64,000 bases of DNA from Myxococcota bacterium. GTDB lineage: Bacteria; Myxococcota_A; Polyangia; Polyangiales; Houyiibacteriaceae. The stretch lies in the NCBI GenBank assembly GCA_028284955.1, contig JANQQS010000026.1, forward strand, positions 18,068 to 82,067, in the 5' to 3' direction. Shown in pieces: positions 15,578-63,911 of the stretch (position 1 is its first letter; each line of letters begins with the position of its first letter). Made by a program: the position numbers and the translations under genes. The notes below the pieces were generated by a model. The model saw nothing but the letters and a program-made list of their open reading frames with translations. It was not told where the DNA came from and ran no database searches.

Positions 15578-16192
15578 CCCAGCTGTGTTCTCTGGAGGGG
15601 CTGGCCACAGCCGCTGTGTTCTCTGGAGGGGCTGGTCGCAGCCCCTCCCCCCACGAAATACGATTCCGCGGGGGCCCCTCCCGACGCCGGCCGCTCACGC
15701 GGCCGCCCCATCGCTCCGCGACGGGGCCCCGGTCGCGTCGAGCTTCAGCCCGTGCGACAAGACTTGCGGACGACTACACCTTGGTCCTCCCGCAGTTCTC
15801 CACCACGAAACACAGCACATGCAGCCTGGCGGGGGAGTTTGGGTGACTGTGTGGTTCGGAGGGTTTGAGGCAAACCCTCCCCCCACGAAATACGATTCCG
15901 CGGGGCCCCCCTCCCGACGCCGGCCGCTGTCGCGGCCGCCCCACCGCGGAGCGGCGGGGCCCCAGCAGTTTGACCCCACACAACCAGGTCACGTGCAGCC
16001 TGGCGGGGGAGAGGGTCTGGGTGCCAGACCCTCAGAAAACACAGCCTGGCGGGGGAGTTTGGGTGAATCGGCGGGGTCGTACCCCGGCGAGAGGGTCTGG
16101 GTGCCAGACCCTCAGAAAACACAGCCTGGCGGGAGAGTTTGGGTGAATCGGCGGGGTCGTACCCCGGCGAGAGGGTCTGGGTGCCAGACCCT
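15578..16192 (-). repeat. R1: multi-hairpin 3' repeat
   Basis: A 615-bp GC-rich block between two convergent genes with no credible coding frame. Read on the minus strand from the stop of the lipoprotein at 16191, it starts with hairpin A (GGGTCTGG-CAC-CCAGACCC), then B (CGGGGT-ACG-ACCCCG), a spacer with CACCCAAACTCCCCCGCC, and a block D built on GGGGCCCCGCCGC. Then come hairpins with stems such as GGAGGGTTTG/CAAACCCTCC (15858-15880) and GGAGGGGCTG/CAGCCCCTCC (15625-15648). Within it, an 80-bp unit is repeated in tandem (16011-16090 and 16091-16170, one mismatch; a third copy starts at 16171). The series A to E occurs about twice. See the findings on the R family. Confidence 0.85.
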
Positions 16193-16784
16193 AATTTAAT
16201 TGATAGCCAAGGAGCGTGGCGCGAACCGACGCTTTCATTTGCGTCACGTTGGTGACAAGGCTCGCGTGTACCGCTACGGGGCCTACGTCCGGGCAGTATG
16301 TCGTGACCACCTTTCGGCCATCTGCTCCTCCAGTTTCTTCGACCCGGACGCAGCGCCTGAACGTGCCCGCTTGGGTGTTCATTGACATATCCACATCACG
16401 AATCCGGGCGGTTCGACCCGAGGCGGCGTCCCACTCGCGTCCGACGGCAATCGGGCCGCGCAAAAGCCATGCTTCGTGAGCCGGCTGGTAGATCCCTTCG
16501 GCCCGTACCTCGTACTTCACGGATGGGCTTCGATTATTGCTGACTTCGTACTGATTTCCGGCAGAGGACACTACGCGAGAGATACTCAGCACGCGCTCGT
16601 GTCCCGTGTCCACCGAGTATGACCACACGTTGCCCTTCGCCAGTGGGTAAAGCTGTTGCGGCGTTGGCGGCGCGGCATCTCCGGCTCTCCCTGACTGGGC
16701 TCCGCCGCACCCGACAGCAAGAGACAAAACCGTCCACGCGACCAAGGCAGGGATGATTAGAGGACGTACTTGAATGAAACCCAT
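16191..16784 (-). CDS. Predicted lipoprotein, function unknown
   Basis: With the ATG at 16784 the protein has 197 residues and begins MGFIQVRPLIIPALVAWTVL, then SLAVGCGG, a lipobox with Cys as first mature residue. The mature part holds beta-rich segments (QLYPLAKGNVWSYSV, YEVRAEGIYQ, REWDAASGRTARI) of the kind seen in small outer-membrane lipoproteins with a clamp or barrel fold, but I recognise no named family. It ends GYQLN, where the TAG stop overlaps the first base of hairpin A of repeat R1. A TTG start six codons earlier is possible. Its 5' end overlaps the small membrane protein gene upstream by 28 nt. Confidence 0.75.
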   Translation of the reverse strand: MGFIQVRPLIIPALVAWTVLSLAVGCGGAQSGRAGDAAPPTPQQLYPLAKGNVWSYSVDTGHERVLSISRVVSSAGNQYEVSNNRSPSVKYEVRAEGIYQPAHEAWLLRGPIAVGREWDAASGRTARIRDVDMSMNTQAGTFRRCVRVEETGGADGRKVVTTYCPDVGPVAVHASLVTNVTQMKASVRATLLGYQLN

Positions 16785-17068
16785 ATCAGCAAAAGCAAAC
16801 AACCGACGAGCACCGCCATTGATACCGGATCGATCGTAACCCGAGCGTACAGCGCCCGTGCTTCTTCAGCCACTTCTCGCTGCCGAAGAGCAGCCAGCGA
16901 CGCACACAGCCGGCGAACAGATCGATAGTCTCCCGCGGCAAACGCCGCGTTGGCTTGCTCCAGGGTGCGCTCTGGATCCTGGCCCGACTCAGAATCACCT
17001 ACCTCGCCGCCGGCATCTTTCACCCCGGAAGGGTAGCATCTATTGACTTCTGGAGCGGTTTCGCCCAT
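16757..17068 (-). CDS. Small tail-anchored membrane protein, unknown
   Basis: A 103-residue frame. The centre (ERTLEQANAAFAAGDYRSVR, then RLCASLAALRQREVAEEAR) looks like one to two TPR-like helix pairs, and the C-terminus is a single hydrophobic helix (VSMAVLVGCLLLLIWVSFKYVL), so it should be tail-anchored with its helical part in the cytoplasm. The frame starts inside the divergent receiver gene, and a GTG at 17023 gives a start nearer to the conserved-looking part. It precedes and overlaps the lipoprotein gene, suggesting a two-gene unit. Confidence 0.6.
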   Translation of the reverse strand: MGETAPEVNRCYPSGVKDAGGEVGDSESGQDPERTLEQANAAFAAGDYRSVRRLCASLAALRQREVAEEARALYARVTIDPVSMAVLVGCLLLLIWVSFKYVL

Positions 17069-17489
17069 TCACTCGTGCGTGGACTCTTCAGGGAACGACG
17101 AACGGCAACGCCCTCCAGACGGCAACGCCGTGCTGGTTATCGATGACGATCCCGACCTTCGATTGATCATTCAAAAGCTGATTGAGGGCGACGGTCATCG
17201 CGTGCACACCGTGTCGGATGGAGCCGCCGCGCTCGAATTCTGCGCCTCGGATGTGCCACAGCTGATCATTGCCGACCTCATGCTGCCCAAAATGGATGGC
17301 GAAGAGTTTTTGCGTCGTTTCAAAAACCAGTTTCCCGATCAAGACGTGCCCGTCATCCTGGTCTCGGCGAGCGCGATTCGTCAGGAAGTCGCCAAACGAA
17401 CGAACGTGGCAGCGTCGCTCCCCAAACCCTTCGATGGCGACGAGTTGCTCGAGCTGGTTCGCAAATACCTAGGGACCGCGCCGCGGTAG
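17043..17489 (+). CDS. Single-domain response regulator (CheY-like receiver)
   Basis: A receiver domain alone: VLVIDDDPDLRLIIQKL holds the acidic pair, LIIADLMLPKMDGEEFL the phosphoacceptor Asp, VILVSAS the conserved Ser, and LPKPF the Lys. There is no output domain, so it should signal by phosphorylation-dependent protein contact, as CheY or SpdR-like proteins do. No kinase gene is adjacent. The nearest partners in the window are the chemoreceptor-like protein at 18827-20503 and the Ser/Thr kinases, but no link can be shown. The open frame begins at a TTG at 17043; about 28 residues precede the domain, and the true start is probably a later GTG. Confidence 0.85.
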   Translation: MTSGAVSPIHSCVDSSGNDERQRPPDGNAVLVIDDDPDLRLIIQKLIEGDGHRVHTVSDGAAALEFCASDVPQLIIADLMLPKMDGEEFLRRFKNQFPDQDVPVILVSASAIRQEVAKRTNVAASLPKPFDGDELLELVRKYLGTAPR

Positions 17490-17504
17490 ATCGCTACGCG
17501 TGGC

Positions 17505-18293
17505 TCACGTCGAGCCAGCTTGTCCCCGGGTTCGTCGGTAGGTAATGAGAAACGCCACCCCGACGGAAAGAAAGTAGAGCACCACCAGGGGAACCAACAT
17601 CATGAGTTGTGATCCGACATCGGGCGGAGTGAGAAACGCAGCCAGGAGCGTCGCGATCAGCACCCACCACCGACCGAACTTGAGCAACTGTTTCCAGTCG
17701 ACGATGCCCGCAGCCGCCAAAAAGGTCACCACCACGGGCACCTCGAATACGACTCCGAACGCGAGCAACATTCGCGTGCAAAACGTCAAATAGTCGTTGA
17801 TCATCAGCGTCGGCGTGACCGTCAGGTTGTGGCTCGGAAGCACTCCCGCAAACCCCAGCAGCGTCTCGAATGCCATCGGGAAGACGACGAGGTAGCCAAA
17901 CGCCGCGCCTCCCGCGAAACAGATCGTGGACGCGATGACGAAGGGGATCGCGAGCAATTTCTCCCGCCGATAGAGCCCCGGCGCGACAAAACCCCAGACC
18001 TGCCAAAACAGCCATGGCGCCGACGCGAGCAGACCCGCGACCACGGCAATTTTTAGATAAGCAACGAAGACGTCGACGGGGCTCGAAAAATGGATTTGAG
18101 GCGGCCCGAGTTTGAGCCTGCCAAACGCGTGGACGAGAGGTCGCACCAGAAGATCGAGCAGTTCCTCACGAAAGATCCACGCGACCCCCATTCCCGGAAG
18201 AATTCCCCAAATGGCGCGGATGATACGGGTTCGAAGTTCGCCGAGATGATCGAAAAAGCCCATCTCAACATCGTCTTCCGGGAGGTCAGTCAT
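17505..18293 (-). CDS. tatC: Sec-independent translocase subunit TatC
   Basis: TatC is the polytopic receptor of the twin-arginine export system and binds the RR signal peptide of folded proteins. The 262-residue protein has the family hallmark FFDHLGELRTRIIRAI near residue 13, six hydrophobic segments, and the motif LFWQVWGFVAPGLYRREK, matching the F-W-Q-x-W-x-F-x-x-P-G-L pattern. The loop before the third-fourth segments (FGYLVVFPMAFETLL) is also typical. Its ATG overlaps the stop of the tatB-like gene by 4 nt. No separate tatA is seen in the window. Confidence 0.96.
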   Translation of the reverse strand: MTDLPEDDVEMGFFDHLGELRTRIIRAIWGILPGMGVAWIFREELLDLLVRPLVHAFGRLKLGPPQIHFSSPVDVFVAYLKIAVVAGLLASAPWLFWQVWGFVAPGLYRREKLLAIPFVIASTICFAGGAAFGYLVVFPMAFETLLGFAGVLPSHNLTVTPTLMINDYLTFCTRMLLAFGVVFEVPVVVTFLAAAGIVDWKQLLKFGRWWVLIATLLAAFLTPPDVGSQLMMLVPLVVLYFLSVGVAFLITYRRTRGQAGST

Positions 18294-18781
18294 GCGCGCT
18301 CCGGCTCCTTATCCTCCGTCGGAGATGGGCTATCCGTTCGAGGCTGGCCTTCCGTAGATGACTGGGCTTCGACAGGCGACTGCGTTTCTACGGGCGACTG
18401 CGTTTCTACGGGCGACTGCGCCTCAGCGGGTGAGGGAGCACCGTGAGCGTCTTCACGCGCAACCGCGCCGGCGGGCATCTGAGTGGCTGGGGCAGAGGTC
18501 GCGTCCGGGCTTTCTGAGTTCGCGTGATCGGCCCGAGGGCGGGTCACCGGAGGTCGAACGGGTGGCTTCGTGCCAATGGGATTGCGAAAGTCGTCGTCTC
18601 GAAGCAGCTCATCGATTCCCGCCTGCCGTCGAAGATCCTGCGCGGCTCGACGGAACTCGCGCAAAACCCGTCCCACCGCGCGCATAAAGGTAGGCAACCG
18701 ATCCGGCCCCACTGCAATGAGGAGCACGATGAGAATCACCGCCCATTCGCCTGCACCTATCCCAAACACGCCCGCGAGCAT
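18290..18781 (-). CDS. tatB: Sec-independent translocase protein TatB (TatA/B family)
   Basis: A 163-residue protein with one N-terminal membrane helix (GEWAVILIVLLIAVGPDRLP, with the Gly-Pro hinge) and an amphipathic helix (FMRAVGRVLREFRRAAQDLR). The Glu in GAGEW and the GPDRLP hinge favour TatB over TatA, as does its position fused by a 4-nt overlap to tatC. It should form the receptor complex with TatC at the inner membrane. The C-terminal tail is long and low in complexity; the hexapeptide SPVETQ is repeated, encoded by the 18-nt tandem repeat at 18373-18426. The tail is probably disordered and not needed for transport. Confidence 0.88.
   Translation of the reverse strand: MLAGVFGIGAGEWAVILIVLLIAVGPDRLPTFMRAVGRVLREFRRAAQDLRRQAGIDELLRDDDFRNPIGTKPPVRPPVTRPRADHANSESPDATSAPATQMPAGAVAREDAHGAPSPAEAQSPVETQSPVETQSPVEAQSSTEGQPRTDSPSPTEDKEPERA
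18373..18426. repeat. 18-nt tandem repeat in tatB tail
   Basis: Three units of CGGGCGACTGCGTTTCTA (18373-18390, 18391-18408, 18409-18426) with a weaker fourth before them. They encode SPVETQ on the minus strand. Confidence 0.85.
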
Positions 18782-18826
18782 GAATCGCGGACGACCGGTC
18801 AGGCAAGCGATGATTTTGCGAAATAC

Positions 18827-20503
18827 TCAGGCACGAAGCTTGCGTAGCCGCTCCGCTGCGCCGTTCATATTGCGCACGTAGCGCTCGTAGTTGCCCGTTA
18901 ACTGCTCAATGCGGGCGGCCGCCGCCAAGGTCTCTTCCGAGCCTTGAGCCTGCCGACGATGTGACTGGTGCAGATGGTTGACCATGTTGGAGATATTTTC
19001 AATGGCCTGGCTGATCTGGCGACCACCTCGCGCTTGCTCCTGGCTGCTCCGCTCCATGTGCTGGGTAATCAGTCTCATCTTCTCGGCGCTCTTCATGATG
19101 AGCTCTGAGCCGCGAGCTTGCTCCGCGGTCGCGGCGGCGATCTGCTGCACGGTTTCGGCGATTCGACCGATCGAATCGGTCACCTGCTTGCTTCCTTTGG
19201 CCTGCTCGACCGTGGCACGGGCAATGGCGCGGACCATCGTTGTCGATTTCTGAGACGACTCGAGAATCTTCTTGAGCGCGCGTTCGGCCTCTGCGCTCAC
19301 CGTAACGCCCGAATCCACGGTGCTCGCGCCTCGCTCCACGGCTTGAATCGCGTTGCGCGACTCGATTTGAATCGTCTTGATGAGCTCTGCGATCTCTTTG
19401 GTGGAAGCGCCGGCTCGTTCGGCCAAGTCTTTGATCTCGTCGGCCACGACGGCGAACCCTTTGCCGTGCTCACCAGCCTGGGCAGCAATAATCGCCGCAT
19501 TGAGCGCGAGAAGGTTGGTTTGCTCGGCAACGTCGTCAATGACGTTCAGGATGTCGCCAATCGCCTCGATACGACTGCCAAGGTTCGAAATCACCGCCAC
19601 GGCTTCGGAAGACGTCTCCTTAATGCGGTTGATTTCGGTAATGATCGACTGAATAGATTCTGCGCCGGTTTCCGCGTCGGTAGCCACGTCTTCAGAAAGA
19701 CGCGCGGTTTCGTTGGCGTTTGATTGTACCTGGTCAATCGAGACATCCATCTCGTTCATCGATGATGACGTCTCCTCGGCGGTCAACGAAAGCGCATCGA
19801 CATTCCGAGCGACTTCCTTGATCGAGTAGGCCATCTCTTCGATGGAGGAGACCGTTTCTCGCACGCTCGATGCCAGATTCGCCATGTTCTCCGCCACCTC
19901 GTCGTTGGTAGCAGTCATCTCGAGAATGCTGGAGGAGCTCTCTTGTGCGTTCGAGGCGAGTGTCTCGACGTGCTCGGAGATGTCTTGCAGCGAGAGAGCC
20001 ATGGATTTCATGGACGTCGTGGTCTGTTCCACAGCCGCCATTTGCTCGCCCAACCCGCTTGACAGCTCTTCCACGTTGACCGAAATCACTTCTTCGACGT
20101 CTTGAATGTCACCGAATGCACGTTCGAGATCGTTGCGGGCAGCTCGCTCTTCTTCGCGCAAACTATCGAGCTCTCGCTGCGCGGAATGCGCGCGTTCAAA
20201 CTCGGTCAACAAATCGTCGAGTGCATCAAAAAGCGCAGCCACATTCGCCGAAGCGCGAGCCGGGCGTTGCGGCGAACGCCCTCGCCCAAGGCCTCGCACT
20301 GCCTCGAGCAAGTTGGAGGCGTCCGGCTGAGAAGGCAGGCCTCGGATGATGATGCCCGCCGCTACTAGGCCAAGCACCACGCCAACCACGCCCGGGAGCA
20401 TGTGCTCGACGGTTTGTGACCACCATCCGCAAAGCGCCGCTCCCGCCAGCGCGACCAAGATTCCCGGACCAAAATATCGACTCTGCACGATGCGTTCGCT
20501 CAT
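18827..20503 (-). CDS. Methyl-accepting chemotaxis-type signalling protein
   Basis: With the ATG at 20503 the protein has 558 residues. It begins with two membrane helices ([17 protein letters not shown] and [20 protein letters not shown]) separated by only about ten residues, so it has no periplasmic sensing domain. A coiled coil follows, then a complete MCP signalling domain whose hairpin tip reads [30 protein letters not shown] (described here by its ends EQTNLL and VVADE). Many Gln/Glu pairs could be methylation sites. No CheA/CheW pentapeptide or che genes are near. The large number of heptads suggests a long signalling arm. It may sense membrane or cytoplasmic state. An upstream GTG at 20596 would add 31 residues without hydrophobic character. 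Confidence 0.88.
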
Positions 20504-20645
20504 CAACCGGTCGGCTTCGCAGGCCCCCCCACGGCAGAGGCATAAGCTAGGATATTCGCTAGGTTGCCTCGGACGCAAGTTCTCTCTTAGCGACACTCCA
20601 GTCTTTGTGAGGTCTCGTCACAGCCCCCTGCTCTGGAAGAGGCTA

Positions 20646-21224: not shown

Positions 21225-21707
21225 TGAACAGACTCCATGGATATCGGAGACATGATACCGCAGACGCCGCGTCGTCAGGAGACGATTCCGCGGCTGCCCC
21301 ACCGCGGAGCGGCGGGGCCCGTCAGTTTTCTCTGGAGGGTTTGAAGCAAACCCTCCCCCACGCGGGTACGACCGGCGCGGGTCCCCCTCCTGACTCCGGA
21401 CGCTGCGCGTCCGCCCCATCGCTTCGCGATGGGGCCCCGGTCGCGTTTGGCTTCAGCCGTGGGATCAAGACTGCGGTCGTCAACAACACCTCGGTGGTGA
21501 ACTGTGATCGTCTGGTGAGCCGCTCCAAACTGTGGCGTTAGAAGGCGCAGCTACGTCCACTGTCCGGCCGCTTCCGCGGCCGCCCCACCGCGAAGCGGCG
21601 GGGCCCCAGCAGTTCAACCCCACGTACCAGGTCACGTGCCTCCTGGCGGGGGAGTTTGGGTGAATCGGCGGGGTCGCACCCCGACGAGAGGGTCTGGGTG
21701 CCAGACC
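21225..21707 (-). repeat. R2: multi-hairpin 3' repeat
   Basis: A 483-bp non-coding block between two minus-strand genes. Hairpin A (stem 21690-21697 with 21701-21708) overlaps the TAG stop (21708-21710) of the MopE-type gene. Hairpin B (CGGGGT-GCG-ACCCCG), the CTCCCCCGCC spacer, block D (GGGGCCCCGCCGC) and the stem GGAGGGTTTG/CAAACCCTCC (21334-21356) follow in the same order as in R1, R3 and R4. A stretch of about 100 bases near 21460-21560 does not match the other copies, so R2 looks like two fragments around unique sequence. It may affect expression of the SCP2-like gene downstream. Confidence 0.8.
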
Positions 21708-23798
21708 CTAATTAAGAATCGGCGGGCAGCTCTGCGTGACATCAAACGATTCCACGCGTGGAGTGATCACCTCGGTGCTGCTGCTGCGGTCCGCGATGAG
21801 GACGACTTCAACCATCAAGAACGCCTTCGATCCAACCCCCGCTGCGTCGAGCGCAGTGCCGATGGCCGCGGGAGGATCATCACCCGGAACCGCCGCTACC
21901 GAAATCCAGTTCGACTCTGTACCTGCCAAAGTATCGAGCTCGGCTCGCGTATCCGCCGTCACCACCCGGAAGACGACCCGTGTGCCGGCCGGTGTCTCCG
22001 CCATCCATCGCAGCACACCCCAAGCCGCGGTCTCTCCCTCGCAGAGCTCGAGCACGTGCCGGTAGAATCCGCGAGGGTTCGTCGCCAGCCGCAGCTGCAA
22101 ACCGGTCATATCCGAATACGTGTAGGGATCGACGATCGACCGGGCGACATCGGAATCGACCGTCGCTTCCGTAAGGCCAGCGCCGGGGTCGATGACCACC
22201 GCGCGGTCGCTGCGGGTGATGGACCAAATCTTTCCATCCGAATCCACGGCCATTCCCTTGTTGCTGAACCCGGTGGTCCCCTCGACGGCGACCCACGACT
22301 GGTCCTCGCCCATGGCGGGTTCGTCCGCGTTTACGCGAATCACGCCGCTGCCTTGGCCGGCGCCCCAAATCCACCCTTGCGCGTCAGCCGCAATCCCGTG
22401 AATCGCGATTCCGCCCGAGCCGTACCCCACGCGCACCCAACGATTGCCAACCGGCGCAGAGGGGTCGTATCGCTCGATATCGCCGCCGCCAATCCACACT
22501 CGCTGCTTGAAATCGACCGTGATTCCGTAGGGAGTGTGCTGGGTGCCGTCGATCCGCTGTTTGGCGCAATCGTCAAATCCGGCGCCTTCGCCCACGCAGA
22601 TGTCTTCATCACATCCCGCGAGATTGGTTTCTGAGCACATCGTGGTATCGAGTCGTCCGATACGCCGACCTTCCCGCGTCGACATCCAGAGATTGCCTGC
22701 GGCGTCGATCGCAAACCCGTAGGGACGAACCGGCGCTTCGGTCACCAAGAGCACCTCGCCGGTCACACCGTCGAGCTTAGCGATCCGGTCGGTCGCGTAT
22801 CCCCCGATCCATACGTACTGGAGCAGCTCACCATCGGGGCCTTCCACGTCCTGGGCCGCGACCGCGCGGATCTGCCGCACGTCGTACTCAGAGTCTGCGA
22901 GGTCGCGATGCCAGAGCACGCAATCGTCTTCGCCCCACGGAAGCATGGTGGTGGGCGCTACGCCGCCGAAACCAGACGTCGTAATCTCTCCATCTCCATT
23001 GGTATCCGGGCAATCTTCCCCGAGCACCGAGATGCGCGTTACGCTGCCGTTCACCCCCGAGGAACCGCCGCCGTAGGTTCGCCATTCACGGTTGCCCACA
23101 TATACGTCGCCCAGCGTGTTCACCGACGTTCGCGACGGATCCATCTGCAGACGCGAACGCGTCGTCGGAACGCCAGGCCCCGATACGTCACGGTCGTCGC
23201 CGGTAATGTATCGTCCGACCTCCAGATAATCGCCGTTTTCGTCCGGCGTGGTGCTGAACCGCGATACCGAACCCTCTTCTGTGTTCGCGATCCAGATAAA
23301 GTCCGTATTGATTTCTTCCGAGTTGAGAATCAACGCGCCGTCCGGATCCACGCCGACTCCTTGCGACGGATCCGTCGATGGATCGAAAGGATTTTCCGTG
23401 CCCGTGCCGATGCCGCCCCGTGTGCAGAAGGGGTCGCAATCGCCACACGCGGAAAGCACGCCGTTGTCTGCTTCCCCGTCGCAATCGTTGTCGCGGCCGT
23501 CACAAACCTCGGTACCGGTTTGCGTCGCATCCTGGTCGTCGCAGTCAGGTCCGCGCGCACACCCCTGACCATACCCATCACCGTCTTCATCCACTTCGCA
23601 ACTCGACGGGTTTCCTCCCGAGCTATCGGGCGCCGTCGCGACAACCTGACAAGTACCATCCACGCACATTTGGTCGTCGCGGCAGTCCTCAGGGAGATCG
23701 CAAGGCGCACCACTGGCCGAATCACCACTGCAATTGCATGAGGCAAACAACATCGCGGAGGGCACCAGGGCGTAAAAAAACAGTCGTTGAACGCGCAT
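21708..23798 (-). CDS. Lipoprotein with MopE motif and beta-propeller-like domain
   Basis: A 696-residue surface protein. The signal peptide RVQRLFFYALVPSAMLFASC ends in a lipobox. A Cys-rich region (CDLPEDCRDDQMCVDGTC) and a MopE-type putative metal-binding motif (VCDGRDNDCDGEADNG, about 97-112) follow. The large C-terminal part contains repeating units such as VWIGGYATDRIAKLDGVTGE, YGFAIDAAGNLWMSTREGRR and GMAVDSDGKIWSITRSDR, which match NHL/SMP-30 type propeller blades. Related myxobacterial proteins are exposed at the outer membrane; binding or a lyase-like activity are both possible, and no catalytic site is obvious. A good ribosome site (AAGGAAG) precedes the ATG. The TAG stop overlaps hairpin A of R2. 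Confidence 0.8.
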   Translation of the reverse strand: MRVQRLFFYALVPSAMLFASCNCSGDSASGAPCDLPEDCRDDQMCVDGTCQVVATAPDSSGGNPSSCEVDEDGDGYGQGCARGPDCDDQDATQTGTEVCDGRDNDCDGEADNGVLSACGDCDPFCTRGGIGTGTENPFDPSTDPSQGVGVDPDGALILNSEEINTDFIWIANTEEGSVSRFSTTPDENGDYLEVGRYITGDDRDVSGPGVPTTRSRLQMDPSRTSVNTLGDVYVGNREWRTYGGGSSGVNGSVTRISVLGEDCPDTNGDGEITTSGFGGVAPTTMLPWGEDDCVLWHRDLADSEYDVRQIRAVAAQDVEGPDGELLQYVWIGGYATDRIAKLDGVTGEVLLVTEAPVRPYGFAIDAAGNLWMSTREGRRIGRLDTTMCSETNLAGCDEDICVGEGAGFDDCAKQRIDGTQHTPYGITVDFKQRVWIGGGDIERYDPSAPVGNRWVRVGYGSGGIAIHGIAADAQGWIWGAGQGSGVIRVNADEPAMGEDQSWVAVEGTTGFSNKGMAVDSDGKIWSITRSDRAVVIDPGAGLTEATVDSDVARSIVDPYTYSDMTGLQLRLATNPRGFYRHVLELCEGETAAWGVLRWMAETPAGTRVVFRVVTADTRAELDTLAGTESNWISVAAVPGDDPPAAIGTALDAAGVGSKAFLMVEVVLIADRSSSTEVITPRVESFDVTQSCPPILN

Positions 23799-24054
23799 CG
23801 GAACTTCCTTTAAATGAAGGCAAAGCAGGCCAGAACGTCGGCCTTTTGAAACCGCGTAGCGAGGGGCACCACTATTTATGAGCTTGACATTGATCTACGG
23901 ATCAAAGCAAGTACGTGCGCGGTGTTTTCCGCCCTTAAGGAGGCAAGCTTATCTGCGCGGTTCGCACACGGTGTAGGCCGCTGTACGGAGAGATGACCAA
24001 CGTCCGCAGAGCACCTCCGATTGCCATCATGCGAACCACGGTCATCCGCATTGT
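23799..24054. other. Intergenic region upstream of the MopE lipoprotein
   Basis: About 256 bases between two minus-strand genes. It must hold the promoter of the lipoprotein gene and the 3' end of the helicase unit. I see no convincing -35/-10 pair, hairpin terminator or small gene. Confidence 0.5.
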
Positions 24055-26613
<2,559 letters not shown>

Positions 26614-30072: not shown

Positions 30073-30310
30073 CGGCGGCCGCCTAGTTGTTTGGAGGGTT
30101 TGGTGCAAACCCTCCCCCACGCGGGTACAACCCGCGCGGGACCCCCTCCCGACTCCGGCCGCTTCGCGTCCGCCCCACCGCGTAACGGCGGGGCCCCAGC
30201 AGTAAACCCATTACGTAAGCAGGTCACGTGGTTCCTGGCGGGGGAGTTTGGGTGAATCGTCCGGGATTGTATCCCGGGCGAGAGGGTTTGGGTGCCAAAC
30301 CCTAATTGAA
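30073..30310 (-). repeat. R3: multi-hairpin 3' repeat (single full unit)
   Basis: The shortest and cleanest copy, about 230 bp between two convergent genes. On the minus strand, hairpin A reads GGGTTTGG-CAC-CCAAACCC (stems 30284-30291 and 30295-30302), hairpin B has CCGGGAT/ATCCCGG, then the CTCCCCCGCC spacer with CACGTG, block D (GGGGCCCCGCCG), a stem CGCGGGT/ACCCGCG and the stem GGAGGGTTTG/CAAACCCTCC (30093-30115). The stems carry compensating changes relative to R1, R2 and R4. The A end lies eight bases after the stop of the gene at 30311, and the reading frame of that gene meets another in-frame TAG at the A boundary. Confidence 0.85.
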
Positions 30311-30802
30311 TCAGCGCATTTCTGAGACGCCAATGATTCTTGGGGCGTTGACCATGACCACTGACGCGGCTTCGACGCTCGGACCCTTCGCGTCTAGTCC
30401 CAGCGTGCACTCGTTCATCACGAAGAATCCCTTGAACTCCATCAGTCGATCCGATACGCGCACGCCCTGCGGGAGGGTAAGCGCCCCCATAAGAAGGCCG
30501 CCTTCGAAAAGACACGACACACGACGAGGTTCGCCCTCGGATCCTTCCTCCGTGGGCTTCAGTCGTTCGTCGGCGCCAGCGACCACGAGCACTACCGCGC
30601 TGCGCTGAAGCGCAAGGAAGGGAACTTCGGTGCGCTGCTGTGGCAGCATGACGTCAGTCAGCCGAAAAAACCCATCGACGGTGTTCAGAAACTTGAGGAA
30701 CGACATCTCCGGCGGCACATGAAATGTGCCGACGACCCAACCGCCTGACACGAAGATCCGCGCTGGGACTTTACGTCGTTTCGGATTGGCGAGCGCACCC
30801 AC
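30311..30802 (-). CDS. Conserved-looking hypothetical protein (163 aa)
   Basis: A soluble protein without signal peptide or membrane helix. Segments such as VPARIFVSGGWVVGTFHVPP, VPFLALQRSAVVLVVAGADE and RVSDRLMEFKGFFVMNECTL alternate strands and turns and suggest an all-beta fold. I do not recognise the family. The frame opens with GTG at 30802. It stands alone, with R3 beyond its stop and about 120 nt to the divergent gene at 30927. Confidence 0.65.
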   Translation of the reverse strand: MGALANPKRRKVPARIFVSGGWVVGTFHVPPEMSFLKFLNTVDGFFRLTDVMLPQQRTEVPFLALQRSAVVLVVAGADERLKPTEEGSEGEPRRVSCLFEGGLLMGALTLPQGVRVSDRLMEFKGFFVMNECTLGLDAKGPSVEAASVVMVNAPRIIGVSEMR

Positions 30803-50534: not shown

Positions 50535-50635
50535 GCACCAATCTCCCCTCATGCACCCCTCCCCCTGGTCAGATGCTCCAAGGTCCGAGCGCGTCCCGTC
50601 CGAGCGCATCCCATAGAGCAATGGTCAGTGTGGCT

Positions 50636-50658
50636 GAGGGTCTGGCGCCCAGACCCTC
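50636..50658. terminator. Solo hairpin of type A
   Basis: A perfect 10-bp stem (50636-50645 with 50649-50658, loop CGC) of the R-family A type, with the CTCTCG flank on the plus-strand side. It lies ten bases beyond the stop of the gene at 50668. Its orientation is opposite to that in R1-R4 relative to the gene. It lacks a T tract, so it may work as a structured 3' end. Confidence 0.6.
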
Positions 50659-50667
50659 TCGTCTGCT

Positions 50668-50994
50668 CTAGTTTGATGCGACGCGTAGAGTGACCCGCCC
50701 GGCCGGCGGAATCATCACCTCGCGCGGCGGTGTGCTCGCACCTTCGTTCGGGCGAAATACCACTTGGTACGTCCCGCCAGGCACCCCATCGATCTGGCAA
50801 CGCCCTTGTTTCGTCTGACAGGTCCGTTCGGAATCGTCGGCACGAACCAAAATCACCGCGCCGTCCGCGGGCTCGCCGTCCGCGTCGCGCACTTCCACCG
50901 ACACGAGCGCATCTGCCGATGCCGGCGTTGTCCAGCAGAAGACCAAAACGGTAAGCGCGATGACGATCAAAGGTCGGGTAGCGAATCGAATCAC
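50668..50994 (-). CDS. Small secreted carboxypeptidase-regulatory-like protein
   Basis: The GTG at 50994 has GGAG seven bases upstream and gives a 108-residue protein starting with the signal peptide IRFATRPLIVIALTVLVFC (cleavage after ASA). The mature domain ALVSVEVRDADGEPADGAVI, then QTKQGRCQIDGVPGGTYQVV, is one carboxypeptidase-regulatory-like beta sandwich with a likely disulfide (CQTKQGRC). It resembles the domains in the OmpA-type protein encoded just downstream and may act with it. An ATG at 51045 extends the frame but spoils the signal peptide. Confidence 0.7.
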   Translation of the reverse strand: MIRFATRPLIVIALTVLVFCWTTPASADALVSVEVRDADGEPADGAVILVRADDSERTCQTKQGRCQIDGVPGGTYQVVFRPNEGASTPPREVMIPPAGRVTLRVASN

Positions 50995-51159
50995 GTTGAG
51001 GCTCCGAGGAGTTCGGACGCAGGGTGGGCGGTGGTGATTCACCACGCTCCGTCAAGTCGTCCATACGAGGTTGGTCCATGAGAGGTGGTTTCGTCCATGG
51101 GTCGGTCATCATGTGGACGTCGACACCGGTCTTCGCAGAGTCGATGCCCACTGAGCCGT

Positions 51160-55487: not shown

Positions 55488-55504
55488 GACGGGGCAACCC
55501 CGTC
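55488..55504. other. Seven-bp hairpin in the divergent promoter region
   Basis: GACGGGG pairs with CCCCGTC around CAA, twelve bases before the GIDE-like gene start. The sequence resembles hairpin B of the R family but stands alone and may be chance in GC-rich DNA. Confidence 0.4.
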
Positions 55505-55675
55505 ATATGTTCAGCCTGTGATCCAGAAATGGGTTGCGCAAGCCCCACCGGGAAGAAGTCCGCCGACAGGGCGAAACCGAATTTGCCGTCGGGGCCCATA
55601 TATCCTACATGGCACTACAATTGCTTACTCGTGTGCGTGGAGCGCACGGGCGTGCGCGGAGTTGGTTGGTGATCC

Positions 55676-57466: not shown

Positions 57467-57529
57467 ACTCCCTGCAAACCGCAGGCGTCGCGCGCAAACC
57501 CGTCGGGTCAGTGCCGGGGCCCAAGCCTA

Positions 57530-58528: not shown

Positions 58529-59457
58529 CCCGTTTTGAGTTTTGGAAACGCGATGCGCTCGAAAAAACGGCGCGGGAGCTCGGAATTCGGGATCCGGAGT
58601 ACATGACTCGTCGAACTTTGCTGAAATCGATTCGGGATCAGCTCCGCGGACCTCGCGGACCGTTGCGTAAAGCCGCCAAGTCGATGGTGAGCCGTATTGC
58701 GGGGCTGGCCCGAGCGTTTACTGGAGACGAGCCTCAACCCGCCGAAACGGACGGCGAACCGACGATTCGCGAAGAGCCGAGCGCGGTGGTTTTGCCTGCG
58801 GCGGAGGAGCCTGTCGAACCGTTCGAACGCGTGGTTTCGAAGGAGCTCGTCAACACAGAAGCACCCCCTCGTTCAGACTCTGAAACGCCTACCCACGCAG
58901 AAAAACCTGTCCACGCGAAGGAGCCCGTCGAAACACGGACCCTGGCGCGAATCCTTCGCGAACAGGGGCATCATCAGCGCGCTCTCTCCATGTACCGACG
59001 ACTGCTCCTGGAACACGAAGACGACCCAGAACTCAAGCACTGGGTCGATCGTCTAAGCCAGGACGCCGCTCAAGGGACAGGACAGCCTCTGCGCGCTGAA
59101 TCTCTGCCGGGCGAATCTTTGCGAGGCGAAGAGTGTATCGGCAACGAGGTGGTTTCGGTGACCGTCGACCCGTCGACCCTGCTGGTGAGTTGGTCGGTGA
59201 CCGAACAGTCGATCGAGCGAGCCCAGGCGCGCCTCGGCTCCTCGGGAGAGCTCACCGCGCGGGTGGTGGTCGTCGCTCCCGAGGAGGATTCGATTGTCGG
59301 CTCCTTTACGCACTCCACGCGAGCCGAGCGGGAGGGCGAGTGGGTGGTTTCAGACCTCCCGCTCGGCGCGCGCGCAGCAGCGGCAGTTGGAATCGCAGAC
59401 CAACACCGATTCATTTCGGTGGCACATGCCCCTGTTCTCTGCGTCAAACAAGTGTAA
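58519..59457 (+). CDS. Rho-N/SAP-like domain protein, unknown
   Basis: A 312-residue protein. The first 45 residues (ALEKTARELGIRDPEYMTRR and TLLKSIRDQL) resemble the Rho N-terminal/SAP-type helical domain that binds nucleic acid. A variable acidic linker follows, then helices with TPR character (LARILREQGHHQRALSMYRR). The last 100 residues (VVSVTVDPSTLLVSWSVTEQ) look like a DUF4912-type beta domain. The start overlaps ribF by 10 nt, so it is translated with it. Function unknown; the combination suggests a cytoplasmic binding protein. Confidence 0.6.
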   Translation: MDLTRFEFWKRDALEKTARELGIRDPEYMTRRTLLKSIRDQLRGPRGPLRKAAKSMVSRIAGLARAFTGDEPQPAETDGEPTIREEPSAVVLPAAEEPVEPFERVVSKELVNTEAPPRSDSETPTHAEKPVHAKEPVETRTLARILREQGHHQRALSMYRRLLLEHEDDPELKHWVDRLSQDAAQGTGQPLRAESLPGESLRGEECIGNEVVSVTVDPSTLLVSWSVTEQSIERAQARLGSSGELTARVVVVAPEEDSIVGSFTHSTRAEREGEWVVSDLPLGARAAAAVGIADQHRFISVAHAPVLCVKQV

Positions 59458-59511
59458 ATCTCGCAGACAAAAAGTACGCAACTATCGCGGGCGAGGGCCG
59501 AAGAGTACGGC

Positions 59512-60039
59512 GTGCGCGTTGGTGCGACCCAGCTGTGTTCGAGAGTCATCTGCCCAGGAGTCAACCGCCTGGGAATCGCCTGCCTAGGAATCGCCTGCCT
59601 GGGAATCGCCTGCCTGGGAATCTCTTCGTGCATCCGCGGAGACGGAACCAACCTGAACTCGCTCGCCGCGAGAGCTATCCCCTCGATTCAAGCGCGTGGA
59701 ACTGGAATCCGAGCGAAGCTGGTTCGCCAGCGCGCTCGCGCTGACCTCGGCCCTCAAAGAGCGGAAACCGGTCGTCGGAAGTGGTTTTTTTCTGTCCAGA
59801 TTCGACTTGTCTGGCCGCTCTCGACCGGGCCCCGCGGCAACCCCCGAGAACGCGCAATGAACGATGTTCCTGAGTACGAAACGAGCCCTCGGAGAGGTTT
59901 CGACAGACTCGCATTCGGAGTTTCGCTTTCGTGCTCGAGCGCATCGCTGTGCGCCTGGGAACGTCAAAGAACACTGCAAACGATTCGCCGACTCGAACAG
60001 CGATTTCTTGAACGCGCGTCCTACTTCATCGAGCTTTGA
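59512..60039 (+). CDS. Possible lipoprotein with repeated LGIAC segment
   Basis: A 175-residue frame from GTG at 59512. Residues about 15-40 repeat the pentapeptide LGIAC three times and end LGISSC, forming a hydrophobic core with Cys that looks like a lipoprotein signal peptide built by the 15-nt tandem repeat at 59541-59625. The rest includes WFFSVQIRLVWPLSTGP, which could be an outer-membrane strand, and ends in a helix (TLQTIRRLEQRFLERASYF). Its TGA stop directly abuts the ATG of the next gene, which argues for a real, coupled gene. No family recognised. Confidence 0.5.
   Translation: MRVGATQLCSRVICPGVNRLGIACLGIACLGIACLGISSCIRGDGTNLNSLAARAIPSIQARGTGIRAKLVRQRARADLGPQRAETGRRKWFFSVQIRLVWPLSTGPRGNPRERAMNDVPEYETSPRRGFDRLAFGVSLSCSSASLCAWERQRTLQTIRRLEQRFLERASYFIEL
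59541..59625. repeat. 15-nt tandem repeat, about six copies
   Basis: Units of GGGAATCGCCTGCCT, perfect at 59571-59585 and 59601-59615, with one change at 59586-59600 and weaker copies on both sides. In frame inside the predicted lipoprotein signal. Confidence 0.85.
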
Positions 60040-60699
60040 ATGTCGCGACCGAAGCACAATCGGCAAGCCTCGCGAGTCGTTCTCAACCGCCGGCATGGCG
60101 GGAGAATCCTGGGAATAGTGGCGCTTGTTGTTTGGTTGTTCGCGCCAGATGCGCATGCGGACGATGGACAAAAAGTCACCCGTGCTCGGCTGCGCGTCGC
60201 AATGACGCGCTACGCCCATGAACCCACCGCTGAACGAGTCGCAGAGCTCGCGCTGGAAGCCGCTGCGGTGCATCCCGAACGCATGCTTCGCATGATTCGT
60301 CGGGCGCGCGCACGGGGTCTGCTTCCCGAAATCCGGCTGGGCGCGCGCCAAGGGCGCGAAGTCGACCGTTTCGTGTCCCAGGTCGGCACCACCGATCGAC
60401 TGTCTACGGATCGCGATTTGACCCTGGAAGCGTCGCTCACCATGCGATTGGATCGTCTGCTGTTTTCAAACCAAGACGCCGCGTTGATGCGCGAGCATCG
60501 GCGTAGGCAGTCGTTGCGTTCGCGGATCATTCGGGAGGTCGTCCGTCTCTACTACGAACGACGCCGCATGCAGCTTGAGCGCGATCTTTTCGGCGTTCAT
60601 TCGCTGGAGCAAGAAATGGCGCTCAGCGAACGAGCAGCGCTCCTCAATGCGTTGACCGACGGAGCGTTTCTAAAAGAAATGAGCCGTCGCAAACCATAG
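60040..60699 (+). CDS. Secreted coiled-coil/helical protein, unknown
   Basis: A 219-residue protein with a basic start and a signal peptide (RILGIVALVVWLFAPDAHA). The mature part is nearly all helical and very rich in Arg and Glu (MLRMIRRARARGLLPEIRLG, RSRIIREVVRLYYERRRMQL), with a likely coiled coil at the end. The segment STDRDLTLEASLTMRLDRLL could be a membrane-spanning strand. It resembles helical halves of TolC-like or OM-associated proteins, but no motif is decisive. It starts right after the stop of the upstream gene, so the two form a pair. Confidence 0.6.
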   Translation: MSRPKHNRQASRVVLNRRHGGRILGIVALVVWLFAPDAHADDGQKVTRARLRVAMTRYAHEPTAERVAELALEAAAVHPERMLRMIRRARARGLLPEIRLGARQGREVDRFVSQVGTTDRLSTDRDLTLEASLTMRLDRLLFSNQDAALMREHRRRQSLRSRIIREVVRLYYERRRMQLERDLFGVHSLEQEMALSERAALLNALTDGAFLKEMSRRKP

Positions 60700-60740
60700 A
60701 CCAAAACCCGCGACGTCTCTACTCCAGCTCATATCCTACT

Positions 60741-60903
60741 CTAGACCGCCCACGGCTTAAACTGATCCCGACTCGCGGGTCTGGTCCGCGTCGTCGCGCG
60801 TTGTTCGTCATCGAAATAGCTTGGCTATTCCTCTTCCTCTCGCCTTCATCGACACGGACCATCCTCCGCGATTCAAAATCAGTTTAAGCCGTGGGCGGTC
60901 TAG
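60741..60903. repeat. 163-bp element with 26-bp perfect inverted terminal repeats
   Basis: Ends 60741-60766 and 60878-60903 are a perfect inverted repeat of 26 bp. Inside, GGTCCGCGTCG pairs with CGACACGGACC (one mismatch) and AATAGC with GCTATT, so the unit is nested and palindromic. The right arm supplies the last codons and TAA stop of the PNPOx-like frame; the left arm begins 41 nt after the stop of the plus-strand gene. No coding frame inside. MITE-like, or a bidirectional terminator-like structure. Confidence 0.8.
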
Positions 60904-61565
60904 GCGACGGACGAAACTCATGGGCAAGGCGACGAATCGCTGGCGTGATCGACGTTTCACACGAAAGTTCGGGATCCGGCTCGGGCGGCGCCCAGGCTTG
61001 CTTCAACGCCACAACGCCGGCCCAGTGAGGCAGCTCATAGTCCGTCGCCGCATCTTTGGGCGGCCCTGAGCGAACTTTTTGCGGAAGCTTCGGTAATCTC
61101 CAGCGCAACCACCCGGGTCGCTCTGAGTTCAGCGTCGCTTGGCGGGCGCGTCTCCGCGCTCCGCCCGGGCGCTACGTGCTCTACCAGTGCTTCCAAGGCG
61201 CGGCGCTTTTCGTCCATCGCGCGCACATCTTGCGCACGGCCGAAAAGAATGACCGACCGGTAATTCATCGAATGATGAAATGCCGATCGCGCGAACACGA
61301 GCCCATCGAGCAAAGTCGCTTCGACGCAAACCGGAGGCCCTTTGGCAATCTGGTTCAGCATTGCGCTCGCGATCGCCCCATGGAGATACACCCGATCTCC
61401 GATACGAGCGTGCACCGTCGGAATAACCACGGGGCCGTGGTTTGCCTGAAAACCTACGTGGCAGATCAGAGCTTCGTCCAAGATGGAATGAATCAGAGAG
61501 CGGTCGTGCGACCCCCGCTCAGGATGACGCCGAAGCGTCGTGCGGCTTGATTGTGTCGTCGTCAT
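60884..61565 (-). pseudogene. PNPOx-family (FMN-binding split barrel) protein, frameshifted
   Basis: From the ATG at 61565 (MTTTQSSRTTLRRHPERGSH) the protein has the split-barrel pattern: LIHSILDEALICHVGFQANH, VIPTVHARIGDRVYLHGAIA, CVEATLLDGLVFARSAFHHS and MNYRSVILFG. The frame then stops early at 61035. The adjacent frame continues naturally with VRSGPPKDAATDYELPHWAG and VVALKQAW, the family C-terminus, which ends at 60884 inside the inverted repeat. The two join at a run of five A (61076-61080); four would keep the frame. The family oxidises pyridoxamine phosphate or reduces other small molecules with FMN. A real frameshift, phase variation or a sequencing error are all possible. It is divergent from the MocR gene. 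Confidence 0.75.
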
Positions 61566-61588
61566 CTGCGGCATCTTGATATCGGCAT

Positions 61589-61621
61589 GGTATGAAAAAA
61601 AGTACCAGAAACACTTTTTCA
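61589..61621. promoter_or_regulatory. Candidate MocR operator between divergent genes
   Basis: In the roughly 100-bp gap between the two starts, TGAAAAAAAGT (61593-61603) is followed after nine bases by ACTTTTTCA (61613-61621), an A/T-rich inverted repeat, and GGTA/TACC flank its left half. MocR/PdxR regulators bind repeats between divergent genes, so this is a likely site. No experimental motif match can be claimed. Confidence 0.4.
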
Positions 61622-61667
61622 ACTAGACCAGTTGGCGAATCGAGGCACAAGAACCACAGGAAGAGTC

Positions 61668-63176
61668 ATGGCGGAACAAAAAAGACCCCGACGGCCGAAC
61701 GACATCGTATTCCGTCTCGAATCTTCGAAACGACCGCTCGCTGTGCGAATTGCCCATGCGATCTCACGCGATATTCGAAGCGGTCGACTGCGCCCCGGCG
61801 AACGATTGCCCGGCTCCCGGTCACTTGCCGAGCATCTCAACGTGCATCGGAACACCGTGCTCGCGGCGTATCGAGAACTCCAAAGCGAAGGTTGGATCGA
61901 TTCGCGCGCCGGGCACAGCACCTACGTCTGCGAGCAACTACCTTCGTCTGTCTACCCTCGTCGCTCCCGGACGCCGCGCTCGGGGTTTGACGATCGAGTC
62001 GGATATCCGGTGCCGCCGCGACCCCGAACCCGAACGCAAACGACTTTCCATTTGCAAGGCCTGATCAACCCAAACCTGATCAACCCAAGCTTGATCAATC
62101 TAAGCGACGCTACGCCCGACGTGCGCTTGCTTCCGACAGCTGCTCTCGGTCGCGCCTATCGGCGAGCAATGCGTTCCCGCGGAAGTGCGCTTTTGGGCTA
62201 TGGCGACCCGCAAGGACATCCAAAGCTCCGACAAGAGCTCGCGCGCTTTCTGTCGAGTACGCGTGGGCTCGTGGTGTCTCCGGCAAACGTTTTGGTCACA
62301 CGCGGTAGTCAAATGGCGCTCTCATTGGTCGCCAAGTTGCTACTTGGGCAACACGATGTCGTCGCTGTGGAGGCTTTTGGTTATCCACCGGCGTGGGATT
62401 CCCTTAGTGGCCAAGGCGCAACGCTAGTACCGGTGTCGATCGACCAAGACGGGCTGAACGTGGAGCAGCTCGAGCAAATGGCAGCGAGCCAATCCCTCCG
62501 GGCGGTTTATCTCACGCCTCACCACCAATACCCCACCATGGCCACGCTAGGCGCCGCACGACGACTTCGACTGCTCGATCTGGCTCGCAGAAAAAAAATC
62601 ATCGTCATCGAAGACGACTACGACCACGAGTTTCACTACGACGGGCGGCCGGTATGGCCACTGGCGAGCACGGACGAACACGGAGTGGTGCTTTACGTCG
62701 GGACCCTGTCCAAAGTTCTCGCTCCAGGAATTCGCGTGGGCTACTTGGTCGCCCCGCGTTCGATCATCGAACGGGCCACCGAACTTCGTTTGTCGATCGA
62801 TCGACAAGGCGACCTCGCAACCGAGTACGCGGTGGCCGAATTGCTCGAAGACGGCGAAGTGCAGCGCCACATACACCGCATGCGCCGAATCTACCGCGCA
62901 AGAAGAGACGCGCTGCTCGAAGCACTCGCGTGCCACCTTAGCGACGCAATCACCGCGCCCTGCCCACCGGGCGGTATGGCGCTGTGGGCACGGACGCATT
63001 CAGACGTCGACGTAAACGCCTGGGCCGCGCGAGCGGCGCAACAAGACATCATCGTACACGTCGCGCAACAGTTTTCATTTTCCAAACGCCGCGCACCCTA
63101 CCTGCGACTAGGATTCGCATCACGAACCGAAACCGAACTAAACGACGCCATCGCGCGCCTAGCGTCTGTTTTTTAA
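61668..63176 (+). CDS. MocR-family transcriptional regulator (GntR HTH plus aminotransferase fold)
   Basis: Taking the ATG at 61668 with an AGGAAG ribosome site, the protein has 502 residues. A GntR winged helix (IRSGRLRPGERLPGSRSLAE, then HLNVHRNTVLAAYRELQSEG) is followed by a linker that includes the 15-nt repeat at 62061-62105 (LINPNLINPSLINLS) and an aspartate-aminotransferase-like fold. The latter has GDPQGHPKLRQELARFL, DDYDHEFHY and the PLP-binding Lys in YVGTLSKVLAPGIRVGY (about Lys349). MocR proteins bind PLP as an effector and often control a nearby PLP or flavin gene. Here the divergent PNPOx-like gene is the likely target. R4 begins directly after the TAA stop. Confidence 0.94.
   Translation: MAEQKRPRRPNDIVFRLESSKRPLAVRIAHAISRDIRSGRLRPGERLPGSRSLAEHLNVHRNTVLAAYRELQSEGWIDSRAGHSTYVCEQLPSSVYPRRSRTPRSGFDDRVGYPVPPRPRTRTQTTFHLQGLINPNLINPSLINLSDATPDVRLLPTAALGRAYRRAMRSRGSALLGYGDPQGHPKLRQELARFLSSTRGLVVSPANVLVTRGSQMALSLVAKLLLGQHDVVAVEAFGYPPAWDSLSGQGATLVPVSIDQDGLNVEQLEQMAASQSLRAVYLTPHHQYPTMATLGAARRLRLLDLARRKKIIVIEDDYDHEFHYDGRPVWPLASTDEHGVVLYVGTLSKVLAPGIRVGYLVAPRSIIERATELRLSIDRQGDLATEYAVAELLEDGEVQRHIHRMRRIYRARRDALLEALACHLSDAITAPCPPGGMALWARTHSDVDVNAWAARAAQQDIIVHVAQQFSFSKRRAPYLRLGFASRTETELNDAIARLASVF
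62061..62105. repeat. 15-nt tandem repeat in MocR linker
   Basis: Three units: CTGATCAACCCAAAC, CTGATCAACCCAAGC and TTGATCAATCTAAGC, encoding LINPN, LINPS and LINLS. Confidence 0.85.
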
Positions 63177-63911
63177 GGGTCTGGCACCCAGACCCTCTCG
63201 TCGGGGTACGACCCCGCCGATTCACCCAAGCTCCCCCGCCAGGAAGCACGTGACCTGCTTACGTAAGGGGTCTACTGCCGGGGCCCCGCCGCTTCGCGGT
63301 GGGGCGGACGCGAAGCGGCCGGAGTCGGGTGGCGGACCCGCGCGGGTCGTACCCGCGGGGGGGGGAGGGTTTGCATCAAACCCTCCAAACAACACAGTCA
63401 CCCAAGCTCCCCCGCCACGAGGCTCGTGACTTGGTTTCGTGGAGGCGAACTGCCGGGGCCCCGCCGCTTCGCGGTGGGGCGGACGCGAAGCGGCCGGATG
63501 GGACAGAATCGCACCTTCAAAAGACGCAGTCGGAACAGATCACCACACAGCAGTGACCCCCGGACGCCACCCAGCAAAGGCAAGGGGGCGTAGGGGACCC
63601 CGCGCGGCGCGTAGCGGCGGTGGGTGGGGGGACCCGCGGAATCGTATTCCGTGGGGGGAGGGTCTGCGGCCAGACCCTGTGTTGTTTGAGGGTTTGGCAC
63701 CCAAACCCTCTCGTTCGGGATACGATCCCGAACGATTCACCCAAGCTCCCCCGCCAGGAGGCACGTGACTTGGTTTCGTGGAGGCGAACTGCCGGGGCGG
63801 GGCCCCGCCGCTACGCGGTGGGGCGGCCGCGACGGCCACCCAGCAAAGGCAAGGGGGCGTAGGGGACCCCGCGCAGCGCGTAGCGGCGGTGGGTGGGGGG
63901 ACCCGCGGGTA
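63177..63911 (+). repeat. R4: compound multi-hairpin 3' repeat
   Basis: The longest copy, about 735 bp. Directly after the TAA stop comes hairpin A (63177-63184 with 63188-63195), B (63202-63207 with 63211-63216), the CTCCCCCGCC spacer, block D (GGGGCCCCGCCGC), a stem with CCCGCG/CGCGGG and the stem at 63364-63386. A second and partial third unit follow. Here A is GGGTTTGG-CAC-CCAAACCC, B has TTCGGGAT/ATCCCGAA and the E stem is GGGTCTG/CAGACCC (63660-63677). Two further blocks at 63567-63638 and 63836-63908 are near-identical, spaced 269 bp. The last unit is cut by the IS-like element. Confidence 0.85.

Follow-up and report, generated by a model that had tools for sequence, protein, structure and literature searches.

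Four Hairpin Blocks at Gene Ends

The DNA analyzed here (the window) is a 64,000-nucleotide stretch of a contig from a Myxococcota bacterium, whose genome (G000) comprises 6.07 Mb in 223 contigs and is 96.55% complete. Four blocks of GC-rich hairpins, R1 to R4, occur in it and share a module that we call omega (Table 1). These blocks are probably compound arrays of a hairpin unit descended from miniature transposons, which an IS630-type (Tc1/mariner) transposase would have moved. Complete copies elsewhere are inverted-repeat elements of 155–171 bp flanked by TA, and in related species they stand at C-TA-G.

A previous reading of the letters alone (the sequence-only reading) had described four blocks of one family that take up about 3% of the window. 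The blocks lie where it had placed them, the share of the window is upheld, and their relatedness is far above chance: R4 matches R3 on the minus strand with 89% identity over 219–220 bp (E ~1e-76). Its statement that the blocks carry no gene holds insofar as none was assigned, although an open frame passes through R1 (15585–16199) and a weakly scoring one through R4 (63398–63700). The same reading had all four blocks start with hairpin A on the stop side of a gene read in one direction. This part fails, as R4 is inverted and the stop-side end of every block is hairpin F. A stop codon stands next to the F end (AGGGTYTGGCACCCARACCC) in all four (16191–16193, 21708–21710, 30311–30313, and 63174–63176), at −1 to 8 nt from the hairpin. 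The F end of R1 abuts the stop of a minus-strand gene (16191–16802), and that of R4 directly follows the TAA of gene 61632–63176. At the A end, R1 and R3 reach the stop of the other, convergent gene, and R2 reaches the 5′ side of a gene. The left edge of R1 is a CTAG (15574–15577) whose TAG is the stop of plus-strand gene 13331–15577; the A edge of R3 also carries CTAG, but there it is not the stop itself. The segment 63900–64000, beside R4, holds two near-repeats that follow the pattern CACATAGGTAACAG / GACATGGGTAACAC.

Table 1. Omega-containing features and a related mini copy in the window
Feature	Position	Strand	Description
R1	15578..16192	−	Compound array; A/B/C hairpins left, omega ends right (80-bp tandem)
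R1, outermost omega	16128..16193	−	F hairpin, E hairpin, TTCACCC core; alignment row 16128–16201
R1, second omega	16048..16121	−	Part of the 80-bp tandem of R1
R2	21225..21709	−	Compound block; F end abuts stop 21708–21710 of minus-strand gene 21708–23798
R2, omega	21645..21710	−	Alignment row 21645–21718
R3	30073..30310	−	Single F-E-core-D-C-B-A unit, 218 bp, between convergent genes
R3, omega with leader	30237..30310	−	Alignment row L001:1665–1738
R4	63177..63911	+	Inverted relative to R1–R3; second unit from ~63690
R4, omega with T-rich leader	63167..63240	+	Alignment row L005:1492–1565
R4, second omega with leader	63682..63755	+	Alignment row L005:2007–2080
Mini copy	50614..50670		F hairpin only, with both inverted-repeat tips; absent from the sequence-only reading

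Architecture and Copy Number of Omega

Read from the gene side, omega consists of a T-rich leader, hairpin F (GAGGGTYTGG-CAC-CCARACCCTC), hairpin E (for example, CGTTCGGGAT-ACG-ATCCCGAACG), and then ATTCACCCRARCTCCCCCGCC. The 218-bp unit of the R3 type is longer by spacer D and three more hairpins, C, B, and A; to the eye, the A-B part resembles a diverged omega in inverted orientation. The hairpin order that the sequence-only reading saw as common to the blocks does mark one related family. That order is modular, however: in two relatives, G007 and G014, the omega end is present without the remaining modules. The core GGCGGGGGAGYTYGGGTGAATC, allowing up to two mismatches, occurs 256 times in G000, 19 times in G007, 9 times in G014, and once in a third relative, G053, and the reversed pattern, used as a control, occurs in none of the four. 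The 218-bp unit has 86 matches across G000. The true copy number may be higher, since some contigs end inside copies (e.g., C60:11–84 and C12:1–73).

The stems of omega covary. Seventy omega rows were found and 68 aligned; double changes occur in 9 of 17 pairs, with 97 such cells compared to 32.6 after shuffling. Pairing cells amount to 90.8% versus 83.5% in shuffled alignments, and every slid version is worse. For further pair types, the count does not exceed that of shuffles, 467 of 500 of which were as high or higher. Single copies also fold more stably than their shuffles, with z values of −5.9 (L003), −5.6 (L189, from the related genus g76), and −2.6 (L039, from G007); the predicted fold of L039 retains F and not E. 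Pairing of an F arm with the core was inspected by eye and dropped.

Omega has no entry in Rfam at the gathering cutoff, and loose thresholds gave sub-threshold matches only. The absence of such an entry for the blocks agrees with the sequence-only reading, to which no named family of this kind was known and for which an existing entry would have counted as a refutation. Whalefall-1 RNA (RF01762) resembles omega in its two hairpins and matches the omega region weakly on the minus strand of two g76 copies (L201:1525–1578 and L189:1525–1577). These matches are probably due to chance; they score 20.7 and 19.3 bits, below the gathering score of 37, and do not make omega a member. No viral contig stretch contains the omega core, and we found no prior description of the family in the open-access literature searched, PMC2864571 included, in which wording varies.

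Position at Gene Ends

Neighboring genes were taken from a codon-model caller trained on the window, gene ends from longest open frames having been rejected as misleading. The 118 clusters of copies were deduplicated by exact sequence, so that one cluster may have been counted twice if two loci cut it at different points. Both neighbors were called for 52 clusters, of which 28 lie between convergent genes, 23 between one-directional genes, and 1 between divergent genes. Copy-free neighbor pairs from the same fetched stretches (n = 149) divide into 21, 93, and 35, respectively (convergent versus rest, Fisher p 8e-8). Among 104 F ends, 96 have a called neighbor, and it is the neighbor's 3′ end that 87 of them face. 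The A ends (n = 37) do so in 23 of 30 cases and the ends of other kinds (n = 47) in 20 of 35. Of the 87 F ends, 44 have a stop ending −1 to 9 nt from their hairpin. In one-directional contexts of G000, F lies on the stop side in 18 cases, on the start side in 3, and at both ends in 1 (p 0.0015). The placement at gene ends reported by the sequence-only reading is thus reproduced, and the random positioning that would speak against it was looked for and not found. One F end (L171, near 1500) lies directly behind the 3′ end of an apparent, putative tRNA gene (GGTTCGAATCC...).

In the g76 genomes (G153–G158, 10.8–13.4 Mb), the codon-model approach separated frames poorly, so open-frame length at the junction was used. 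The 44 copies considered gave 26 TAG junctions on the left and 26 on the right. The junction TAG ends an open frame of at least 150 codons in 15/26 left and 13/26 right cases, 28/52 together, versus 34/204 comparison TAGs of the same loci.

The preference for convergent pairs and the GC-rich hairpins would suit ordinary bidirectional transcription terminators of convergent genes, a form of the transcription-end role that the sequence-only reading had raised. We regard this explanation as very improbable. A T-rich stretch precedes the hairpin in the 104 F ends, and no T run of the kind that follows an intrinsic terminator hairpin stands behind F in the 68 aligned copies; moreover, 23 of the 52 clusters lie between one-directional genes. 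Two copies in relatives (L043 and L051) stand, by eye, just behind an apparent ordinary hairpin-plus-T terminator. A transcription-end element is not supported on these grounds. Information in the leader rises ~12–13 nt upstream of GGG, at a pyrimidine-T. Behind the stops of 217 other genes, T runs at 0.17–0.26 per position with no enrichment, so the leader seems to be the element's own.

Complete Units and Empty Sites

The sequence-only reading had also offered a mobile noncoding element that targets gene ends, and this suggestion is supported by inverted repeats, by sites that are filled in one sister species and empty in another, and by the duplication of TA at C-TA-G. Eight sites were aligned from orthologous stretches, six across the six g76 genomes, where omega is often enclosed in a longer unit, and two between G007 and G014. 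At siteL186, the filled copy of G154 reads CCCC-TA-[GAACATCG...omega...GGCGCTC]-TA-GCTCAAG; G153 and G155 are empty, with CCCGTAGCTCAAG (longer reading GTAGCTCAAG) and the target GTAG. At siteL201, G156 and G157 are filled and G153 and G155 are empty (CGCTAGCGGCCGAA / ATCGCTAGCGGCC), with G154 nearly empty-like and G158 diverged. At siteL191, G153 carries a complete unit at CTC-TA-G, and G155 and G157 are empty (CTCTAGGCAGTCC). The TA duplication is clean at these three of the eight sites, with units of 155 or 157 bp. The empty target is CTAG at siteL201 and siteL191, and the form is C-TA-G to C-TA-[G...C]-TA-G, in which the element runs from G to C and TA is duplicated. At each of the three clean sites the upstream gene ends in this TAG, and at siteL201 the convergent gene does as well; in G156 the convergent stop reads TTA-G, i.e., a TAG made from TA plus the last C. 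The element's first base is G and its last is C, which re-forms the stop codon on each side.

Twelve further distinct complete units of 155–160 bp were found in other g76 stretches by a search that required TA on both sides; CTA precedes all 12, and TAG follows 10 of them. The inverted repeats of g76 units pair GAACATCGA... with ...TCGATGCTC or ...TCGGCGCTC. G000 itself has eight units of 169–171 bp, GAGCAGTGGTCAGT...ACTGACCACTGCTC, with at most two mismatches per repeat. A preceding TA was a condition of that search; the following bases are TA in six units, a contig end in one, and TG in one. Units of the R type with the left tip of the complete unit occur at L019, L028, and L232, and this shared tip ties R1–R4 to the complete unit. 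The mini copy of the window has the form TA-[GAGCAATGGTCAG...F hairpin...GTCTGCTC]-TA, with 53 bp at 50616–50668 and TA on either side. On the minus strand, its TA plus first G form the TAG stop of gene 50668–51045.

A second dispersed family, S, has 48 matches in G000 and resembles miniature inverted-repeat transposable elements (MITEs), as in L008:1200–1495 (TA-[GAGCAGTGGCCTTTTGGCCTGAGCGCG ... CGCGCTCAGRCCAAAATTCCACTGCTC]-TA). It has a nine-base tip, GAGCAGTGG, in common with omega units, and several of its copies begin, by eye, at the TAG of a gene.

Candidate Transposases

IS630 is said, going by the title of a 1991 paper by Tenzen and Ohtsubo that PMC2170065 cites, to prefer TA in CTAG. 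Duplication of TA and a preference for CTAG are marks of IS630 (PMC2170065). A search of 11 carrier genomes with PF13358 gave matches in 7 genomes, at 12 loci, of which 7 were inspected for repeats. Four of these (L352, L354, L357, and L358) have inverted repeats arranged as C-TA-[G...C]-TA-G; L351 has a repeat pair with TA-G on one side only, and L353 and L356 have no clear pair. The protein of L358, which adjoins a g76 copy, is an IS630 family transposase (E 9e-69). In L352 (G157), an IS630 element ends exactly in CTAG at a g76 hairpin tip (2826–2845, CTAG|AACATCGAGCGG), an arrangement of one element within the target of another.

Complete omega units resemble IS630 elements and their miniature derivatives in the TA duplication, the CTAG target, inverted repeats that start with G, small size, and lack of genes. 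They differ in holding a conserved, covarying double hairpin with TTCACCC that is common to different inverted repeats. The omega family also stands apart in its compound arrays, in its hundreds of cores, and in that our searches did not find a cognate transposase. By description, Correia, ERIC, and other prokaryotic MITEs are likewise structured miniature elements at gene edges (review PMC10969869), and ERIC copies at gene 3′ ends of Yersinia affect transcript levels according to the same source. Neither "stop codon" nor "CTAG" occurs in that MITE review.

A different engine would be the Y1 transposase TnpA-REP, also called RAYT, which moves single-strand hairpins of the repetitive extragenic palindrome (REP) and bacterial interspersed mosaic element (BIME) type and cleaves at CT (PMC8266576). 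Omega shares with REP, BIME, and REPIN sequences (GTAG and CGTC superfamilies) the short perfect stems, the 3-nt loops known from REP_Sm, high copy number, and a mostly extragenic position (PMC3733652 and PMC8266576), and the F edge lies near CT. A lone RAYT-like gene in G000 (L061 in contig C158, 1432–2340) scores 73.6 bits with REP_Tyr_transpos, below the cutoff of 80. GGYTGGCACC on either side of this gene was considered as a link and rejected, as the covariance model gave no omega match at this locus. In genus g2, two Y1 loci (L116:1121–1180 and L112:2145–2204) carry a homologous TTCACCC-AACTCCCCAGCC piece with a weak core match (E 0.034 and 0.079). The g2 piece beside the Y1 genes (TTCACCC-AACTCCCC) has no clear F and E hairpins.

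Eight of the 11 carriers have Y1_Tnp. It is missing from G154 (2 contigs), G155, and G156, in which 24, 19, and 24 omega matches, respectively, were scored. Scans of 39 Y1 loci (30 + 9) gave no significant omega match nearby, and no RAYT gene was found bounding omega. The 68 aligned copies have no GTAG tag at the hairpin foot; CGTC occurs in some, inside stem E, and is variable. Complete omega copies bear inverted repeats and a TA duplication, neither of which Y1 elements are known to make. Because Y1_Tnp is missing in three carriers and TA is duplicated at empty sites, movement by a Y1 enzyme is placed behind the IS630 reading and appears improbable.

Distribution among Relatives

The search of the genome and of other Myxococcota with a covariance model, which the sequence-only reading had put forward, shows that the family is spread within its order, in a patchy manner. 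Among 183 genomes of the order, 14 have matches at E 1e-3; at E 1e-5, a phylum sample of 377 genomes yields 7 with a match, all within this order. Both counts are lower bounds, because strict filters applied and no more than 26 or 13 candidates per genome were scored. With at least one copy read per genome, the layout of F, E, and TTCACCC recurs with other letters in 13 of the 14 genomes, which belong to six genera of three families. The match in the 14th, G147 (L196), reads as chance. The letters differ by group: GAGGGGGACGC-CTC-GCGTCCCCCTC, T, CGTCCGGGC-AAA-GCCCGGACG, and ATTCACCC in g76; AGGGGCTTTT-CGC-AAAAGCCCCT, GGCGGC-AAA-GCCGCC, and CTTCACCC in g13 (G034 and G180); AGGGGTCTTT-CAC-AAAGACCCCT plus ATTCACCC in g10 (G009); and GGGGGCGC-CGC-GCGCCCCC, CGCCTCGC-TAC-GCGAGGCG, and ATTCACCC in g47 (G086). 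When 57 relatives were searched at the DNA level, 7 had matches, including G053. The nine short matches in this genome, which belongs to another family, fall in the A/B and E portions of the R4 unit (e.g., L032, L041, and L049).

Copies with enough flank (18 in G007 and 10 in G014) have two gene neighborhoods in common. Their genes, and those of a further locus, are presumably rpsB, tsf, ilvB, ilvN, sdhC, and sdhA, as recognized from the translated text. In both genomes, a copy lies directly behind rpsB and before tsf (L055 in G007 and L048 in G014). At ilvB-ilvN, the G014 copy (L057, ~1430–1600) lies within the ilvB-like 3′ end, adding ~35 residues in frame before the native end resumes. The G007 copy lies in the ilvB-ilvN gap, with none at the insertion point of G014, and we read the two as independent insertions. 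The sdhC-sdhA locus of G007 has a protein ending in ...ELEPAPVTVP, with TGA adjoining the F hairpin, whereas that of G014 terminates in ...ELEPS.

These observations bear on a further explanation, in which omega, much like the structured 3′ UTR offered by the sequence-only reading, would be a host-useful element of the 3′ untranslated region (UTR), for example a protector of mRNA 3′ ends, with transposition secondary. The covarying stems, folds more stable than shuffles, the two-hairpin and TTCACCC layout kept with other letters in six genera, the stop-side bias of F in G000, and the copy behind rpsB in both genomes are consistent with such a role. Against it stand the patchy distribution and the fact that at most compared sites at least one sister species has no copy. 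The g76 copies, in addition, have no clear side bias at their two junctions. On this balance, judged from sequence comparison, a primarily host-serving element seems rather unlikely, though a better candidate than movement by a Y1 enzyme.

Proposed Origin and Mechanism

Our data suggest the following course for the IS630 reading. An IS630-family transposase would cut the units out and insert them at TA in CTAG. CTAG would be a rare site, and insertion at stop codons would be harmless, which may be why such copies survive. R1–R4 could be derived from these units, which would have lost their inverted repeats, been duplicated in tandem, and taken up further copies within copies. More tentatively, the two three-base-loop hairpins and TTCACCC core may be kept because they act, either as an RNA downstream of the stop codon or as a DNA structure that is bound, and such action might make insertion tolerated or useful.

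Several results weigh against this account. R1–R4 show neither inverted repeats nor TA duplication, and their place is drawn from the shared omega and the intermediate copies. Edges are not clean at five of the eight compared sites (L189, L203, L204, L047, and L063), where only presence and absence are seen. The family of G000 itself shows flanking TA without an empty site, and only three of its eight complete units have the exact GCTC end. Most listed F ends have no inverted repeats, and many follow TGA or TAA; the mechanism outlined here leaves the spread of such copies unexplained. PF13358 has no match in G000, G007, G156, or G158, and none of the four repeat-bearing IS630 elements, among the 7 of 12 loci inspected, has the units' own tips. 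CTAGs outside elements also end long frames in g76 (6/23). The window holds 52 CTAGs, 36 of which are internal to called genes and 3 of which coincide with called stops. With CTAGs mostly inside genes, target choice alone cannot place copies at stops. Finally, a transposase that reads only the tips leaves the conserved inner structure unexplained.

The engine is likely an ordinary one, that of an IS630-type miniature transposon. Three features are unusual: stops are rebuilt, an inner double hairpin is kept across genera and different inverted-repeat shells, and one genome holds cores by the hundred, of which those examined lie mostly at gene 3′ ends. A bolder, tentative proposal would join these features. 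A lineage of stop-homing transposons would rebuild the stops it enters, and omega would be a selected RNA cargo, a replacement 3′ UTR passed between inverted-repeat shells across the families of the order. Insertion would then be harmless or useful, so that copies fill gene ends.

The IS630 reading accounts for structured repeats packed at stop codons in some bacterial genomes, since the rare target CTAG doubles as a stop and the first base of the element restores it. If the inner module is a functional RNA, the cargo of the transposon, and not its tips alone, would be under selection, and mobile DNA would write the 3′ UTRs of many genes at once.

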